Of a stretch of 24,886 nucleotides of DNA, positions 5,369-24,068 are shown piece by piece. Under the pieces are notes generated by a model. The model saw only the letters and a program-made list of their open reading frames with translations. It searched no databases and was not told the origin of the DNA. The translations under genes and the position numbers were made by a program. Every line of letters starts with the position of its first letter. The stretch's first letter is position 1. Source of the DNA: a virus; the IMG/VR virus record IMGVR_UViG_3300009610_000637, positions 1 to 24,886 of that record. One strand, given 5' to 3'.

Positions 5369-5708
5369 GATCCGGCTGCTCCTCGTCGCGCTTCTGCTCG
5401 CGCTGGCGCGTAAAGGCGGCGTCGTCGTCGGCGCCTACCGGCTCACGGCGCACGTAGGGGCGATCACGCCGCGCCTCGAGGGCAGCGTCGGCCACGGCGA
5501 CGTCCGGGGCCTGTATGCGCTGGTAGAGCTCCCTGCGCTCCGCTGCCGCCCTCTCGCGCTCCTCGGCCAGCTCAGCCCGCGCAGCGGCCGTCTCCGCGCG
5601 GCTGCGGGCCAGCTCCGTCGCCGCGGTGCGGCGATCGCGCCTCGAGCTCCACTCGGCGTAGAGGAGGAGGGCGAGGAGGCCGAGGGTGGCTGCGAGGATG
5701 GCGATCAT
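5361..5708 (-). CDS. Small membrane-anchored coiled-coil protein (115 aa)
   Basis: An N-terminal membrane segment (MIAILAATLGLLALLLY) is followed by a basic stop-transfer patch (WSSRRDRR). Then comes an Ala/Glu/Arg coiled coil (about 25-65, with ARAELAEERERAAAERRELYQR) and a polar C-terminus. The start was placed at the ATG that overlaps the upstream stop by 4 bp (ATGA); an in-frame upstream ATG would add 23 residues inside the previous gene. The architecture resembles inner-membrane spanins or other phage anchors, but no lysin or partner gene is nearby. I therefore leave the function open. Confidence 0.65.
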   Translation of the reverse strand: MIAILAATLGLLALLLYAEWSSRRDRRTAATELARSRAETAAARAELAEERERAAAERRELYQRIQAPDVAVADAALEARRDRPYVRREPVGADDDAAFTRQREQKRDEEQPDRG

Positions 5709-6166
5709 CGAATCGCCGAGGCTCCGACCGTGTACGTCCACGAGCCGCCGGCCGAGTGCGTCACCTTGACGCGCCACTTGCCGGGCAGGCCGAGGGCCAT
5801 GACCTCGTGGCCGCCGAGGGCCGCCGTCTCCGCGGCGCCGGGGTAGAGCGTGTAGGTGAGGGTCGCGCCCGCTTCCAGTTCTTTCGCTTTTTTGGTGACG
5901 GCAAAAGCGGTCAGCGAAATGAACTTGCCCGAGGCCGGGTCGCGGACCTCGAGCGAAAGGGCGAGGGTGCCTTCTTCGGCGGCTTTTTCGGCCGCGAGTT
6001 CGGCTTTTTCTTCGGCCGTTTCTTCTTCTTTTTCGGCCCTGGCTTTGGGCGGCGCTTTGGTGACGTCGAGGACGAGCAGCACCCCGCGCTGGTCGACCGG
6101 AGTGTTCTGGACGTCGCTCTCCGTGGTCGCGGTACGCGGCTCGGATGCGAGGACGGTGCTGTTCAT
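5705..6166 (-). CDS. Phage structural protein with a charged insertion (153 aa)
   Basis: Two conserved blocks, GVLLVLDVTKAP (about 28-39) and LPGKWRVKVTHSAGGSWTYTVG (about 127-148), match a widespread family of small phage proteins found beside portal and capsid genes. These are beta-rich and probably head-associated. Between the strands lies a roughly 30-residue Glu/Lys/Ala helix (AEKEEETAEEKAELAAEKAA), which reads as an insertion into the usual loop. The start ATG overlaps the upstream stop by 4 bp, and its own stop overlaps the next ATG by 4 bp. Family assignment is by recognition, so the precise role in the head is inferred. Confidence 0.6.
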   Translation of the reverse strand: MNSTVLASEPRTATTESDVQNTPVDQRGVLLVLDVTKAPPKARAEKEEETAEEKAELAAEKAAEEGTLALSLEVRDPASGKFISLTAFAVTKKAKELEAGATLTYTLYPGAAETAALGGHEVMALGLPGKWRVKVTHSAGGSWTYTVGASAIR

Positions 6167-11982: not shown

Positions 11983-12021
11983 ATGTGTCCACGATCCCGC
12001 GATCCCCTGCTATGTGGACAC
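11983..12021. promoter_or_regulatory. Pair of operator-like sites forming an inverted repeat
   Basis: ATGTGTCCAC (11983-11992) and ATGTGGACAC (12012-12021) each match the ATGTGTACAC site at 9 of 10 and 8 of 10 positions or better. Their GTGTCCAC and GTGGACAC cores are exact reverse complements separated by 21 bp. The pair sits 54 bp before the ATG of the cargo operon, a place where bound protein would block its promoter or where a transcript could form a hairpin. Confidence 0.5.
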
Positions 12022-12059
12022 GCGATGGTGTACCGTGCGCGATACATGAACGCAGTACC

Positions 12060-12073
12060 GACGAAGGGAGCAG
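12060..12073 (+). promoter_or_regulatory. Shared leader/RBS motif before the cargo operon
   Basis: GACGAAGGGAGCAG directly before the ATG at 12075 matches the leader at 13359-13373. The similarity extends upstream: CGCAGTAC at 12051 is also found at 13351 at the same distance, giving more than 20 nearly identical positions. Confidence 0.6.
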
Positions 12074-12074
12074 C

Positions 12075-12482
12075 ATGAAGCAGATACCGACCGGCGACTA
12101 CGAGGACCGCAAGGTTCGAGACATCCGCGCTGGCGACCGTGCCTTCATCGACGGGGAGTGGCGGGAGATTGAGGCTGGCGGTAGCTGGCCTGAGTCGCCC
12201 AACGTCGTCGAACTGACGACCGAGCCGCACAGCGAGGGCTTCACCTTCAACCCGTCTGTCTCGCTGCCCGTCGCAGTGGGCGAGGTTGACTCGCGGCCAG
12301 AGGGCGAAGCCTTCACGCTCCGTATCGAGCTGGGCAACGCGGCAATGAGCACGGCTGCCGATGTTGCCGACGCGCTGGCGAGAATCGCGGCTGAGGTCGG
12401 GGAAACCGGATCGTGGGAAGGCCGCATCGCTGACGGCAACGGGAACACCGTGGGCCGCTACCTGCTCGGGGAGGCGGTCTAG
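12075..12482 (+). CDS. Cargo protein with a GDRxxxDGEW module (135 aa)
   Basis: Residues about 12-35 (KVRDIRAGDRAFIDGEWREIE) match the start of the 209-aa protein two genes downstream (ADLQTGDRVYVEGDWLTLED), so the two share a small beta module. The central part (FTFNPSVSLPVAVGEV) is strand-like. The C-terminal third (MSTAADVADALARIAAEVGE, then WEGRIADGNGNTVGRYLL) looks like a helix plus beta hairpin. It is acidic overall. The ATG was set by the shared leader; upstream in-frame codons lack an RBS. It is the first gene of the rightward operon. No function is known to me. Confidence 0.7.
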   Translation: MKQIPTGDYEDRKVRDIRAGDRAFIDGEWREIEAGGSWPESPNVVELTTEPHSEGFTFNPSVSLPVAVGEVDSRPEGEAFTLRIELGNAAMSTAADVADALARIAAEVGETGSWEGRIADGNGNTVGRYLLGEAV

Positions 12483-12668
12483 GTGGACTTCGCCGAACGA
12501 ATCGAACGGCTGCGCTGCATCAGCGACGGTATGGGCGACCTCTACTCCAATGACGAGATCCTTGCTGTGGGTGTCGGCTACGGCGTCCCTGGGGCGCTCA
12601 CGGTCGAGCAGATGGCGAAGGAAGCAGACGAGATCCTCGCCGACCTGCTCGAAGGGGCGACGGTCTGA
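12483..12668 (+). CDS. Small acidic helical protein (61 aa)
   Basis: A GTG start immediately follows the TAG of the previous gene, with GGGGAGG about 7 bp upstream inside that gene. The stop overlaps the next ATG by one base. The sequence is helix (MDFAERIERLRCISDGM), a Gly/Val turn (VGVGYGVPG), then helix (ALTVEQMAKEADEILADLLEG). It is acidic. No family is recognised, but the exact junctions on both sides support it as a real gene in the operon. Confidence 0.6.
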   Translation: MDFAERIERLRCISDGMGDLYSNDEILAVGVGYGVPGALTVEQMAKEADEILADLLEGATV

Positions 12669-13297
12669 TGCGCGTCCCCGGAGCTGATCTGCAAACCGGC
12701 GACCGCGTCTATGTCGAAGGCGATTGGCTGACCCTTGAGGACGTGGGGCCGTCTGTCGAGGCTGAGGACGTAATCGAAGCCTTCGTCGGCAACCGCGCCG
12801 TCTACTTCGCCCCTGACGGTCAATACGACCGCCGGGCGAGGTCGGGGGAGTTCGTCGCCGTCGATCTAGACGAGAACAACCGCAAGCCCGCCGGGACGTT
12901 CGGCTGGGGCGTCTGTCGCCACGGCCACGGCTTGCAAGCGGACCTGCCGCGCCTCTCTGAGCACGAAGCCCGCTACCTGGCCGCCTTGCTCACTGAGGAG
13001 GCGTCTAGGTGGCGGCCAGCGTCCAACGGGGCCGGTGCTCGTCACTGGTTCCTGATCCGCGACGCTCAGGCCAGCGTGTCGGCTCGCTACCACCGCAGCG
13101 CCAAAGATCAGCTAGTCCGCTACGCCTCGCACGAGAGCGCGCAGCGGGCCGCTGATCGGCTCAACCGCGACACGGAAGCAGAAGCCCTAACGACCTGCCC
13201 CCACTGTGGGGGAGCACTGGGGCCTGTCGAGCGGCCGGAGCGAGGCGGGGACGCTTGGCGGACCTGCCGCGACTGCGGAAACAACATCTACCCCTAG
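12668..13297 (+). CDS. Cargo protein: GDRxxxEGDW module plus zinc ribbon (209 aa)
   Basis: Three parts are visible. The N-terminal module (about 5-25, ADLQTGDRVYVEGDWLTLED) is shared with the first gene of the operon. A middle part contains GWGVCRHGHGLQADLPRLSEHEARYLAALL and a basic helical stretch. The C-terminus is a zinc ribbon with two Cys pairs (CPHCGG and CRDCGN, near 176-205). Zinc ribbons of this kind usually bind nucleic acid or protein. The stop TAG supplies the first base of the tRNA-like minihelix that follows. Its function is unknown, and the shared module with its neighbour suggests duplication within the cargo module. Confidence 0.7.
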   Translation: MRVPGADLQTGDRVYVEGDWLTLEDVGPSVEAEDVIEAFVGNRAVYFAPDGQYDRRARSGEFVAVDLDENNRKPAGTFGWGVCRHGHGLQADLPRLSEHEARYLAALLTEEASRWRPASNGAGARHWFLIRDAQASVSARYHRSAKDQLVRYASHESAQRAADRLNRDTEAEALTTCPHCGGALGPVERPERGGDAWRTCRDCGNNIYP

Positions 13298-13339
13298 CCG
13301 CGCTTGGAGCGCCGCCCCGGTTCGATTCCGGGGCGCGGC
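13297..13339 (+). other. tRNA-like minihelix A (acceptor stem plus T-arm)
   Basis: GCCGCGC (13297-13303) pairs perfectly with GCGCGGC (13333-13339) as a 7-bp acceptor-like stem. Between them lie 12 nt and a textbook T-arm: CCCGG, the 7-nt loop TTCGATT, CCGGG. D-arm and anticodon arm are absent. The first G of the stem is the G of the upstream TAG stop, and the element is followed by CAT. A near twin with the same layout follows the stop at 14078. It is not a normal tRNA gene. It could be an RNA-processing site, a relic, or a recombination point. Confidence 0.55.
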
Positions 13340-13358
13340 CATGTACCAACCGCAGTAC

Positions 13359-13373
13359 AACCGAAGGGAGCAG
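13359..13373 (+). promoter_or_regulatory. Shared leader/RBS motif AACCGAAGGGAGCAG
   Basis: Located 20 bp after minihelix A and just before the ATG at 13379. It is preceded by CGCAGTAC exactly as at 12051, so this gap repeats the leader of the operon's first gene and may carry a promoter. Confidence 0.6.
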
Positions 13374-13378
13374 TACCC

Positions 13379-13915
13379 ATGAACGCAGAATCCGAGATGG
13401 CGACCGCTGACGGCCTGGGCGGCGAGCCCGCACCGTCGCGGCTCGACCGGCTCCGCGAGCTGGTCGCTGACGAGATCAACCGACCGCACACCGACGCCGC
13501 CGCCGAGCTGTCGGACGTGCTGCACAATGACGACGTGCTCGCCCTCTACGTGGACGGGGGCGACGTACCGCAGATCCTCGCCTGCACGTCTGAGGGCTCG
13601 GGCGAATCGAGCTACCGGGATAACCCGGACTTCTTCGCCGGCACCCGCGACGAAGTCGGCGAGTGGCTCGCCGGCAGCTACAACGAAGGCTGGGCCGCTA
13701 ACTGGATCATCGACCTAGACAGCGGGCAGGCCGTCAACTGGCAGACGAGCGTTTTGCTGGGCGATATGTCCGCCCGGCGGCTGCTCGACGTGATCGCCTC
13801 CGGCGTCCCGCGAGAGGACGAGTGGGACAGCGCGGCCGACTTCATGGAGGCCGTCGCCGAAGGACTCGACCGCGCCGGGATCACCCGGCCCGACCACTAC
13901 CCCGAGGAGGACTGA
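13379..13915 (+). CDS. Strongly acidic cargo protein (178 aa)
   Basis: I do not recognise the family. It is rich in Asp and Glu throughout. The N-terminus is disordered and then helical (PSRLDRLRELVADEINR). The middle is strand-like (VLALYVDGGDVPQILACT) and ends in aromatic-rich segments (GTRDEVGEWLAGSYNEGW, NWIIDLDSGQAVNWQT). A helical C-terminus (SARRLLDVIASG, DFMEAVAEGLDRAGI) closes it. The ATG was chosen by the shared leader. High acidity and position in an accessory module would fit a DNA-mimic or anti-defence protein, but nothing specific shows it. Confidence 0.65.
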   Translation: MNAESEMATADGLGGEPAPSRLDRLRELVADEINRPHTDAAAELSDVLHNDDVLALYVDGGDVPQILACTSEGSGESSYRDNPDFFAGTRDEVGEWLAGSYNEGWAANWIIDLDSGQAVNWQTSVLLGDMSARRLLDVIASGVPREDEWDSAADFMEAVAEGLDRAGITRPDHYPEED

Positions 13916-13919
13916 CCGA

Positions 13920-14078
13920 ATGCCGATCTACCGCTACACGGCCGTTATCCAAGTCACCGCCGACGACCAGGCCGACGCCGACAAGCAGGCCGAGGACGCT
14001 ATCGGCGTCTTCCACGGCAACGCCGACGTGGGCGCGTGGCTCGAAGACAGCGAACCGGAAATCGAAGAGCAGGACTAG
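13920..14078 (+). CDS. Small acidic protein (52 aa)
   Basis: The ORF begins 4 bp after the previous stop with GAGGAGG just inside that gene. Its product starts with a strand (MPIYRYTAVIQVTAD), then a helix (DQADADKQAEDAI), then an acidic tail (WLEDSEPEIEEQD). A similar strand-helix pattern (TWRVTIADDLGDDELLDRL) occurs in the 145-aa protein downstream, so it may be a short relative of that domain. The TAG stop provides the first base of minihelix B. It has no recognised function. Confidence 0.6.
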   Translation: MPIYRYTAVIQVTADDQADADKQAEDAIGVFHGNADVGAWLEDSEPEIEEQD

Positions 14079-14122
14079 CGACGCGCTGGCGCGCTCGGCG
14101 GGGTTCGATCCCTCGCCGTCGC
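14078..14122 (+). other. tRNA-like minihelix B (acceptor stem plus T-arm)
   Basis: GCGACG (14078-14083) pairs with CGTCGC (14117-14122), one base short of a full acceptor stem. Inside is a T-arm with stem CGGGG/CCTCG (one G-T pair) and loop TTCGATC. As in element A, the first G belongs to the upstream TAG stop, the element is followed by CAT, and the leader motif comes next. The central linker differs, so the shared parts are the structural and T-arm bases. Confidence 0.5.
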
Positions 14123-14138
14123 CATTCACCCAACACCC

Positions 14139-14150
14139 AACCGAAAGAGA
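14139..14150 (+). promoter_or_regulatory. Shared leader/RBS motif, AACCGAAAGAGA variant
   Basis: It lies 5 bp before the ATG at 14155. It continues as ATCCC, matching the integrase leader on the other strand (AACCGAAGGAGATCC at 24071-24084) better than the other copies. Confidence 0.5.
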
Positions 14151-14154
14151 TCCC

Positions 14155-14592
14155 ATGAGCGAGAAGACCTACGAGTTCGAGAGCATCGGCGAGGCGACGC
14201 TGCGCGAGACGTGGCGCGTCACCATCGCCGACGACCTGGGCGACGACGAATTGCTCGACCGTCTCACCGACGAGCTGCAAGCCGGGAACTGCGAGTTCGT
14301 CGAGGAGCGCGCCGAAGAAGAGCGCGAACGCGAGATCCGGCCGGAGTCGATCGAGGAGGCCGGACCCGAGCCGGAGACGGCATACACCGTCGTCGGGCTC
14401 TACTGCGACAACGGGCAGCGCTACGCAACGAGCGTCTACACCAACGACGGGCCGCAAGCCGCCGAAGCGCTGGCGCAGAAGGTCTGCCGAGAGGACAACG
14501 ACGAGGCCGACTCAGACCGCGACCTGATCGAGATCGCCGCCGTGATCGAGGGGGAGGCGACCCTCGCCGACCTGGGCGCAGACATCCCATGA
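14155..14592 (+). CDS. Acidic cargo protein, possibly two small domains (145 aa)
   Basis: The first part (about 1-65) has a strand TWRVTIADDLG, a helix DDELLDRLTDELQAG and a highly charged region (ERAEEEREREI). The second part (about 75-145) has the strands TAYTVVGLYC and RYATSVYT, a helix AAEALAQKVCRED and another strand IEIAAVIEG. The alternation suggests small alpha/beta domains. The stop overlaps the next ATG as ATGA. The family is not recognised. Like its neighbours it is strongly acidic, which is a common feature of this module. Confidence 0.65.
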   Translation: MSEKTYEFESIGEATLRETWRVTIADDLGDDELLDRLTDELQAGNCEFVEERAEEEREREIRPESIEEAGPEPETAYTVVGLYCDNGQRYATSVYTNDGPQAAEALAQKVCREDNDEADSDRDLIEIAAVIEGEATLADLGADIP

Positions 14593-14822
14593 GAAAGGCC
14601 GAGCAGATCCGTCTAGACGTCGGGGCGACCGCTCAGGAAATCGCGGAGTGGGAAGAGCGCGGAGTCGAGCTGCGAAGGCGGCTCGGCTCGGCTCTTGCCG
14701 AGGCCCGCGACCATCCCGAGTTGACGCTAGAAGAGGCTCGCGCGATCCCCGAGAAACCGATCCCGAGGCAGACCGCCAACCGCCTGATCCGCGAGGCCGG
14801 TACTGCCAACGCCGCGCCATGA
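14589..14822 (+). CDS. Small helical protein, possibly HTH (77 aa)
   Basis: The start overlaps the previous stop by 4 bp and the end overlaps the protease start by 4 bp. The sequence is helical with a charged middle (EIAEWEERGVELRRRLGSALAEARD) and a C-terminal stretch with EEARAIPEKPIPRQTANRLIREAG that could be a helix-turn-helix. It has no recognised family. Coupling to the protease gene implies co-expression. Confidence 0.6.
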   Translation: MRKAEQIRLDVGATAQEIAEWEERGVELRRRLGSALAEARDHPELTLEEARAIPEKPIPRQTANRLIREAGTANAAP

Positions 14823-15277
14823 TTTTCCGGCGCTGCATCGCCTCGCTCGTCGTCCTCCTGGCGCTTGCCGCGCCAGCGAGGGCGGCACCGTTCACCCCCG
14901 AACTCGACCGGGCCTACAACACGGCCCTGCGCTTCTGGCACACCGAGCCCGGCAACTGCACGTCGCTGGACCGCGAGATCGTCGCCGACGCGGCGATGCC
15001 CGAGGAAGCCGAGGGCTGGGCGACCATCGCCACCGAGCCGACGCCGTGCGTCCTCTACCTGCGCCGCACCCTGGCCGGGCCGCGCTGGTTCGAGCGGGCC
15101 TGCGCCGTGATGATCCACGAGGTCGGCCACCTACTCGGCTACGGGCACTCGGCCGATCCGCGCAACGTCATGTACCCCGAAGTCGTCGCCATCCCCGGCC
15201 TCTGCCAGCGGGTCGGGTTGCGCGAACTCAACCGGCGCGACCGCTACGTGAAGCCGGTACAGCGCTCGTCCGGCTGA
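14819..15277 (+). CDS. Secreted metzincin-like zinc metalloprotease (152 aa)
   Basis: An N-terminal signal peptide (basic MIFRR, hydrophobic SLVVLLALAAPA, cleavage likely after ARA near 21-23) sends it out of the cytoplasm. The catalytic zinc site HEVGHLLGYGH at 100-110 is the full HExxHxxGxxH metzincin motif. It is followed by NVMYP (M118), matching the Met-turn of matrixin-like enzymes. Four Cys in the mature part (C47, C77, C95, C129) could form two disulfides. Length is short for the clan, with no propeptide apparent. It is the last gene of the cargo operon and overlaps its neighbour by 4 bp. Its substrate is unknown; surface or competitor proteins are possible. Confidence 0.8.
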   Translation: MIFRRCIASLVVLLALAAPARAAPFTPELDRAYNTALRFWHTEPGNCTSLDREIVADAAMPEEAEGWATIATEPTPCVLYLRRTLAGPRWFERACAVMIHEVGHLLGYGHSADPRNVMYPEVVAIPGLCQRVGLRELNRRDRYVKPVQRSSG

Positions 15278-15303
15278 CCGTTTATTCCGGCCGGCCGGAC
15301 GAG
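15265..15303. terminator. Inverted repeat at the end of the cargo operon
   Basis: CTCGTCCGGC (15265-15274) and GCCGGACGAG (15294-15303) are perfect 10-bp complements with a 19-nt loop that overlaps the protease stop. Part of the loop and one arm form the 14-bp palindrome TCCGGCCGGCCGGA (15286-15299). There is no U-run, so a terminator or mRNA 3'-end role is inferred from location. Confidence 0.45.
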
Positions 15304-15309
15304 TGGTAG

Positions 15310-15334
15310 TGGCGGCCCCAGGGGTCGAACCTGG
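15310..15334 (-). other. tRNA 3'-end-like element (T-arm plus acceptor strand)
   Basis: On the minus strand CCAGG, loop TTCGACC and CCTGG make a perfect T-arm, followed by GGCCGCC and A in the place of the 3' acceptor strand and discriminator. A matching 5' strand GGCGGTC (15410-15416) pairs at all seven positions with one G-T pair. The 107-nt interval has no D-arm or anticodon arm I can fold, so it is tRNA-like rather than a tRNA gene. Confidence 0.4.
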
Positions 15335-15603
15335 CTCTCCGGGGTAGTAGGCAGGTCGCGACAGCTACGACGTTCCTGCTCGAACCCCGACGACTTTCTC
15401 TACCGTCCCGACCGCCGTGAGGAGTCCTCCACCGGGCGCCGTAGATCCCTCCGTCCGGCCCCAGCAGGCCGGTCCCCCAGGATCGTGCGCGCATCCATTC
15501 GGTCGCTTCGTCCGCTAGCTCTGGCGAGCCGCAGCCCGGCGAAGATTCCCGCCGCCTTTGAGTGTCGCCAGGGAACGACGACGGCGGGCTTGAGGAGGAG
15601 ATC

Positions 15604-22972: not shown

Positions 22973-23175
22973 CGCTTCACCGGGAGGAGCCCGAGCTTGT
23001 CCATTGCCGCCATCCACTTGGCGACGTCGGGGTCCTCGAGCAGCGTCTCGACGGCAGCGACGTCGAAATGGTGGCCCTGGTCGCTGATCGCCTCCTCGGC
23101 GTGACGGATGATCGAGCCGAGCTTCACGAGCAGCGGGAACTCGGGTTCCTGGGGAGCTATGCCCGCCGCGCTCAC
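22969..23175 (-). CDS. Unknown small helical protein (68 aa)
   Basis: GTG start overlapping the integrase stop as GTGA. It is mostly helical: FPLLVKLGSIIRHAEEAIS, FDVAAVETLLEDPDVAKWMAAMDKLGLL. It has a size like an excisionase, but I see no clear winged-helix or MerR-like pattern and it is not basic. It is placed directly after the integrase, so a recombination-directionality role deserves a test. Otherwise unknown. Confidence 0.55.
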   Translation of the reverse strand: MSAAGIAPQEPEFPLLVKLGSIIRHAEEAISDQGHHFDVAAVETLLEDPDVAKWMAAMDKLGLLPVKR

Positions 23176-24068
23176 CGGCCGACCCCCTCGAGCAAGTCTC
23201 GACCAAGGCTAAGGCTCGGGTTGGAGTTGAGGCTTAGGCTGCCCCGCTGATACCGCATGGTGGTGGCGGGATCGCGGTGCCCGACTGCGAGCTGCACGAC
23301 GTGGAGCTCGGCGCCTCCCTCGAGCGCGTTGGTGACGAAGCTGTGCCGCAGGCCGTGCGGCGAGAGCTCCGGGTTGACCCCCGCGTAGTCGGCCAGGTGG
23401 CGGACCCGCGCGAAAGCCGTCTGCCTCGAGATCCCCGCGATCGGCACCGCGACCTGGCGGTTGCGATCGAGCCTGGCGATGATCGGCCCCTCGGTGCGGC
23501 CGTCGAGGAAGACGTCGAGGACGTCGACCACGAAGGGCGCGAGAGGCGTCAGGCCCGGCTTGCTGCCCTTGCGGGTGATCGAGAGGGCGCGGTGGCCGTC
23601 GACGAGCCCCAGATCCGGCACAGCGGCTCTCAGGGCCTCGGAGACGCGCAGGCCGTTGATCCCGAGCAGGGCGAGGAGGAGGAAGTCCCTCGGGCTCTCC
23701 TCGAGCGCCACGGTGAGGAGCTTCGTCAGGTCGTCGGCGCCGAGCCAAGGCGTCGAGCTCTCCCCCGGCAGGGCCAACCGGCCCAGGTGGGTGAAGGGGT
23801 GGTCGACCTGCAACATCCCCCGCTCGCCGAGGTAGGTGAAGAAGCTGCGGCAGGCCGACATCTTGCGGTCGACGGTCTGCGGCAGCAACCCGCTCGAGAG
23901 CAGGTCGGCCCGGTAGGCGTTGACGTCGAGGCGGGTGGGCCGGAGGCCGTCGACGTCGTGCTCGAGGCACCACGCGAAGAAGCCGCGTAGATCTCGTTCG
24001 TATGCCTCGCGGGTGTTGGCGACCGGATACTCGGTCGCCCACTCGGCGAGGAGCTCTGCTGGGCTCAC
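23172..24068 (-). CDS. int: Tyrosine recombinase, phage integrase (298 aa)
   Basis: Joins and excises the phage at an att site. The N-terminal SAM-like DNA-binding domain spans about 1-95 (NTREAYERDLRGFFAWCLE, then KMSACRSFFTYLGERG). All catalytic residues are in place: R141 (GLRVSEAL), K167, H238 and R241 (HGLRHSFVT), H264 (VGHRDPATT) and Y273. Length is normal. It starts with GTG after the AACCGAAGGAG leader on this strand and heads an operon of small genes. The usual att site next to int is not obvious, since its 3' end overlaps the next gene. Confidence 0.93.
   Translation of the reverse strand: MSPAELLAEWATEYPVANTREAYERDLRGFFAWCLEHDVDGLRPTRLDVNAYRADLLSSGLLPQTVDRKMSACRSFFTYLGERGMLQVDHPFTHLGRLALPGESSTPWLGADDLTKLLTVALEESPRDFLLLALLGINGLRVSEALRAAVPDLGLVDGHRALSITRKGSKPGLTPLAPFVVDVLDVFLDGRTEGPIIARLDRNRQVAVPIAGISRQTAFARVRHLADYAGVNPELSPHGLRHSFVTNALEGGAELHVVQLAVGHRDPATTMRYQRGSLSLNSNPSLSLGRDLLEGVGR

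Follow-up and report, generated by a model that had tools for sequence, protein, structure and literature searches.

tRNA-like minihelices in the gene gaps of phage and mobile-element operons, candidate punctuation marks of polycistronic mRNA

Introduction

What are two tRNA-like hairpins, each fused to a stop codon, doing between the small genes of a viral operon? The question arises from the IMG/VR record IMGVR_UViG_3300009610_000637, a stretch of 24,886 bp that was analysed whole and is referred to here as the window. Genes for terminase, portal, capsid, exonuclease, DnaB helicase and tyrosine integrase occupy its minus strand, and a short operon of small genes (~11985–15277), which houses the two hairpins, elements A and B, lies on the plus strand. 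BLAST of the whole window against phages returned no matches.

Results

An initial annotation had placed two minihelices at 13297–13339 (A) and 14078–14122 (B), and had read the first stem base of each as the G of the upstream TAG stop; both elements were present at these positions, on the plus strand, and both begin with that G. Element A (47.3 bits with the covariance model R1, described below) starts on the last base of the TAG (13295–13297) of an ORF of 209 aa (12668–13297). Its acceptor pairs GCCGCGC (13297–13303) with GCGCGGC (13333–13339) over 7 bp, its T-arm (13316–13332) pairs CCCGG (13316–13320) with CCGGG (13328–13332) around the loop TTCGATT, and its linker carries GG at 13306–13307. 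Directly behind it on the same strand lies a second hairpin (13342–13359; TGTAC at 13342–13346 with GTACA at 13355–13359), then a Shine-Dalgarno-like sequence, GAAGGGAG (13363–13370), that is kept in relatives, and the next gene (13379–13915), whose N-terminal tag MNAESEMATADGLGGEP is common to different genes of related phages.

Element B (25.7 bits, E 9.5e-5 in the window record) starts on the last base of the TAG (14076–14078) that ends a plus-strand ORF of 52 aa (13920–14078). Its acceptor pairs GCGAC(G) at 14078–14082(83) with (C)GTCGC at (14117)14118–14122, and its T-arm (14097–14117) pairs GGCGGGG (14097–14103) with CCTCGCC (14111–14117) around the loop TTCGATC; the stems are readable as 5+7 or 6+6 bp, with a total of 12 bp both ways. 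The leader between element B and the start codon at 14155 (14123–14154) contains the Shine-Dalgarno-like GAAAGAGA and no clear second hairpin, and leads into a plus-strand ORF of 145 aa (14155–14592), related genes of which stand behind B-like sites in contigs L391 and L007.

The annotation had described the D-arm and the anticodon arm as missing. The anticodon arm is indeed absent, but the linkers of A and B retain a GG resembling G18-G19 of the D-loop and can form a small D-like hairpin, so that the lowest-energy fold of either sequence taken alone is a three-arm fold. This greater stability of alternative folds with a D-like hairpin counts against the cleavage reading discussed below. The thermodynamic stability of A and B was unremarkable (z -1.1 to -1.7), single-sequence folding being uninformative here. 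Minihelix geometry occurred twice in the window, compared with 0.17 expected from dinucleotide shuffles.

No intrinsic terminator (a GC hairpin followed by a T-run) was found in the window between 11900 and 15400. Downstream of the operon, on the minus strand at 15300–15345, lies an isolated tRNA 3' half (CCAGGTTCGACCCCTGGGGCCGCCA) that has no 5' counterpart and may be the attP core for the tyrosine integrase at 23172–24068; a similar lone 3' half occurs on the minus strand of L001, near 6050–6080. The small plus-strand gene at ~14822–15277 has a hydrophobic, signal-peptide-like start and the zinc-protease motif HEVGHLLGYGH, and matches Peptidase_M10 (matrixin).

A scan of genome contigs with the sequence of element A itself gave no matches, and a broader pattern was therefore adopted. 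In pattern scans of related contigs, element A was identical at 43 of 43 bases in five and present as a variant in L001. The genes upstream differ, and the element always starts at the TAG and is followed by a conserved leader and a start codon. In most of these relatives the second hairpin behind the minihelix reads TTGTAY...GTACAA, with a compensated form, TGCCC...GGGCA, in L391. Some contigs with element A hold second elements that have quite different stems and the same architecture, e.g., GAGACGGC/GCCGTCTC. Isolated Gordonia phages were matched by BLAST at the same spot, which is the end of an annotated gene. Behind element A, the tag MNAE(S/T)E(M/V)-x-x-x-DGLG is followed by unrelated protein bodies (window 13379–13430, L004, L007, L385, L387, and L391), as if the bodies of genes had been swapped behind a fixed start.

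The stop codon is overlapped by 18 of the 19 elements in this group, to which the annotation's placement exactly at a stop codon proved to be confined; elsewhere the usual start is 5–12 nt after the stop. Nor does the 3' end generally run into CAT, as had been described, since relatives have CTTGTA, ACG, GCG or NCCA there.

Beyond the window's group, a family with a common build emerged, consisting of an acceptor stem of 5–8 bp, a linker of 8–15 nt, typically 10–12, with a D-loop-like GG about three bases in, and a T-arm with the loop TTCRANY, without an anticodon arm. The coaxial acceptor/T helix totals 11–13 bp with a mode of 12, as in tRNA. The T-loop and the GG are conserved across elements, and base 1 is a G in 69 of 99. 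Searches with model R1, for which 28 elements served as input, returned 126 matches at 40 loci. Over 96 distinct elements, 93.8% of stem cells were paired compared with 56% for shuffled partners (A2 likewise), and 401 double changes in stems were observed compared with 125 after shuffling, counts that lean upward because the first elements of the model were chosen by pairing. The covariation score was 0.856, compared with 0.173 for shuffled partners and about 0.2 for slid-partner controls; sliding the pairing partner by one column abolished the signal.

Given this initial choice by pairing, a selection-free test was run in several phage genomes, with seeds defined by a 9-nt T-loop motif alone. 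Complete minihelices surrounded 68 of the 197 seeds, compared with 0.34 when flanks were shuffled, and GG stood 12–13 nt before G53 in 56 of these 68, a feature on which no selection had been made. Orthologous gaps of the phages Fowlmouth and Cuke likewise differ by compensating stem changes (e.g., TAGAGG/CCTCTA and TGATGG/CCATCA). Lack of stem covariation in homologues was the first of the refutations that the annotation had named, and the elements withstood it decisively. The family is almost certainly a real RNA structure under selection.

These results bear on two readings that the annotation had offered besides cleavage. That the elements are degenerate tRNA genes or attB/attP remnants has in its favour the resemblance of T-arm and acceptor 3' strand to the tRNA 3' half used as an att core. 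However, neither the window nor L001–L007 contains a tRNA gene by ARAGORN, the stems are maintained by compensatory changes, and the copies are numerous and precisely placed; the covariation and the arrays refute the relic reading. The other reading, recombination or cassette-joining sites between modular genes, draws on the identical element A, leader and N-terminal tag at mosaic joints between different genes in the window's group and on the occurrence of the same element twice within Fowlmouth. Against it, almost every array copy elsewhere differs in stem sequence with pairing kept, a pattern that indicates selection on RNA structure and that disfavours homologous recombination. Recombination is thus at best a side effect, and as the function of the elements it is highly improbable.

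The placement of the elements is regular. The typical order is stop codon, 0–12 nt, acceptor strand, linker, T-arm, acceptor 3' strand, often a second hairpin, Shine-Dalgarno sequence and ATG, and the elements sit on the coding strand in gaps between codirectional genes. An ORF stop lay no more than 60 nt upstream of 86 of the 102 elements (median gap 7 nt), compared with 21% of random positions; about 16% of elements had no recognisable upstream stop within that distance. Behind 61% of elements, compared with 15% of shuffles, stood a second hairpin with 6 bp or more; about 40% had none of this length. In terms of genome positions rather than transcripts, Cafasso has one element in most codirectional gaps of at least 60 nt in its right-arm accessory operons and none at overlapping genes or in its structural half, and Fowlmouth genes 38–58 show a similar gap pattern. 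A pattern scan of the right half of Cafasso gave 10 elements compared with 0.1 expected, and none in the structural half.

Two adjacent hairpins, as in HK022 put, strand specificity and numerous copies across long operons of small genes could also point to an RNA that acts in cis on RNA polymerase, as put or nut sites do, for antitermination or for insulation from Rho. Known put and nut elements, however, are few per operon and near promoters, and the conserved parts of the present family are exactly the tRNA elbow and acceptor, while the stem sequence is free to vary; such a role is quite unlikely.

The bases behind the stem vary among groups: A/G-C-G (ACG/GCG) is frequent in actinophages, and CTT/CAT in the window's group. 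In phage G025, CCA lies exactly one base past the 12th pair in 9 of 12 elements, the position of NCCA in tRNA, and is rare at neighbouring offsets. This encoded NCCA, the tight link to the stop codon and, in the window's group, a stop that forms part of the acceptor could be explained by a fixed tRNA-like mRNA structure that is not cut by RNase P and that stabilises the upstream 3' end or the next 5' end, or binds EF-Tu, the CCA-adding enzyme or TruB in cis. Viral tRNA-like 3' ends provide a precedent. Yet the elements are internal to operons, in the window with no terminators behind them, and a separate hairpin directly downstream suits a new 5' end better, so a fixed structure is unlikely, if worth weighing.

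With the model and whole records, 17 elements were counted in VanLee, 13 in G025, 11 each in Indlulamithi, Cafasso and Morgana, 10 each in Fowlmouth and Cuke, 9 in Endor1, 7 in Konstantine, and 2 in the window; arrays of 7–17 copies thus occur in isolated Gordonia, Mycobacterium and Streptomyces phages. Broader pattern scans yielded hundreds of loci, including arrays of 11 in L224 (48% GC), 8 in L101 (Mycobacterium phage Fowlmouth) and 6 in L249 (42% GC). The model also found copies in viral contigs of low GC and in mobile elements of actinobacteria. In bacterial genomes, 98 loci matched a stricter pattern, nearly all of them in Actinomycetota, and neighbouring genes for NUDIX, WhiB and DUF2637 proteins suggest that these loci are integrative elements. 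Twelve whole bacterial genomes searched with the model had 1–5 matches each, mostly in one cluster. With so few matches in these genomes and none in the phages TM4 and Anaya, the family is specific to mobile DNA.

One element (L292, ~5472–5516, minus strand) lies in a contig of an Anaerolineales (Chloroflexota) MAG, the only non-actinobacterial genome record among the matches listed. Possible further minihelices were seen in L012, L017 and L027, phages of 44–51% GC outside the actinophage group. The pattern also picked up true tRNA clusters of AT-rich large phages (L009, L111, L109, L189, and L208) and intron-split or degenerate tRNAs (L013, L034, and L002), false positives that were removed by the short-linker requirement and the covariance model. 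In the Manatee Spring match (L048, MW202621) the model found no element.

Arrays of up to 17 copies, complete mimicry of the upper half of tRNA and NCCA in one phage would suit minihelices that are excised and work in trans, either as small decoys that blunt tRNA-directed defences or toxins or by keeping tRNA enzymes occupied. Placement in gene gaps with leader and start codon, however, is needless for a function in trans, and anticodon nucleases would find no anticodon arm; decoys are very unlikely.

Rfam 15 at gathering thresholds assigned no family to the elements in the window and five array loci, and found only two ordinary tRNAs elsewhere. At relaxed thresholds the best Rfam resemblance of element B was to mascRNA-menRNA (RF01684), at 19.4 bits against a gathering threshold of 42.5, too low for membership; element A was not listed. 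The elements are not tRNA genes either, with no cloverleaf by ARAGORN, no Rfam tRNA match at the elements and a short linker. No RNA features were annotated at the elements, and the features under full-length BLAST matches were mostly 'none'; the genome announcement of VanLee lists a single tRNA and does not mention the 17 elements (PMC8320454). No description of the family was found in Rfam 15, GenBank annotation or the open-access literature (subscription-only papers and preprints being outside this scope), and it appears to be a widespread family that has so far gone undescribed. That such an RNA class has escaped annotation in phage genomes that are well studied and curated by hand is explained by the tools: programs for tRNA detection require an anticodon arm, and gene callers pass over gaps.

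Discussion

The reading that we favour, with a confidence a little above even, and that the annotation had put first, is that the elements are tRNA mimics cut by the tRNA-maturation enzymes of the host, and that they thereby punctuate polycistronic mRNA. RNase P cleaves hairpins composed of acceptor and T-arm at the canonical site, sensing G19, G53, A58 and the 12-bp distance, and it also processes phage M3 RNA, C4 RNA and some mRNAs (PMC11143913). The family has the features of a substrate for tRNA enzymes, namely a coaxial stem of ~12 bp, the T-loop, G53-C61, a D-loop G and G1. Judged by sequence, the features that it conserves, namely the elbow of T- and D-loop, a helix of 12 bp, G1 and in places the 3' end, are those by which tRNA-maturation enzymes recognise a substrate. 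Its placement also fits mRNA punctuation: larger gaps hold about one unit each, oriented with the genes, and the hairpin behind it is positioned to cap a new 5' end.

In the proposed mechanism, the nascent polycistronic mRNA would display each element as a minimal tRNA, whose elbow and 12-bp ruler would be recognised; RNase P would cut on the 5' side and RNase Z or another 3'-end nuclease on the 3' side, and the downstream message would be freed with a protective 5' hairpin. Accessory genes, each released in this way, would become separately expressed and freely shuffled modules. Cutting may also be coupled to translation, as a ribosome that terminates at the upstream stop would cover the acceptor. 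The broader proposal, that phages and actinobacterial mobile elements independently use a tRNA-punctuation system, possibly gated by this terminating ribosome, stands in our judgement at even chances.

Besides the alternative folds of A and B, other details count against cleavage. Some elements have no recognisable ORF stop close upstream or no second hairpin (about 16% and 40%, respectively). In the window's group, the C73-T/A that follows the stem mismatches the RCC contact of RNase P, which ACG matches in part. The least comfortable detail is that a 5' cut would harm the stop codon in this group: an RNase P cut ahead of base 1 would sever its final G (UA|G). Here the cut may be coupled to translation, the upstream message may be sacrificed, or cleavage may be confined to the 3' side.

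If the elements are processed, phages would possess their own version of mitochondrial tRNA punctuation, which would explain how their long operons of small accessory genes are modular and exchangeable. The family would also be a natural collection of putative minimal substrates for RNase P and RNase Z, present in many copies and with compensatory variants in the hundreds, and might serve as a compact tool to split polycistronic messages in actinobacteria. In addition, the elements mark gene starts. In Fowlmouth (L396), annotated ORFs or start codons of genes 43, 47 and 56 lie within or across an element, and for this reason these gene calls are probably wrong.

Several known systems share part of this design. 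The tRNA-like structures of plant RNA viruses share the mimicry of tRNA by viral RNA, but lie at the 3' ends of genomes, where they mimic aminoacylation in full or contain pseudoknots, rather than in phage gene gaps. The SAS/ESAS of cluster K phages likewise recur at gene starts in a strand-specific manner, within the non-structural half of the genome of these actinophages (PMC3203893), but consist of a 13-bp conserved sequence at the ribosome-binding site and 17-bp inverted repeats. In TM4 and Anaya, both of cluster K, 9 and 15 SAS-like sites (GGGATAGGAGCCC at the start of a gene) were counted and no tRNA-like element; the two do not co-occur there, and the family does not belong to SAS/ESAS.

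Closer in form are the acceptor and T-arm model substrates of RNase P, which share the minimal hairpin with acceptor, T-stem, T-loop and 12-bp ruler (PMC11143913). These model RNAs are synthetic, and the natural non-tRNA substrates (4.5S RNA, M3 RNA, C4 RNA, and some mRNAs) are single cases, whereas the phage family is evolved, multi-copy and keeps the GG of the D-loop. The mascRNA/menRNA, of which the phage element resembles a shortened form, also combine a tRNA-like acceptor, a small D-like arm and a T-arm at an RNA end with processing by RNase P and RNase Z, but they are longer, single-copy and found at the 3' end of a eukaryotic nuclear lncRNA (MALAT1). The punctuation of mitochondrial transcripts shares tRNA shapes in gene gaps that are usable as RNase P/RNase Z signals; mitochondria employ real tRNA genes for this, whereas phages would employ a mimic of 40–45 nt without an anticodon arm, putatively cleaved in the same manner.
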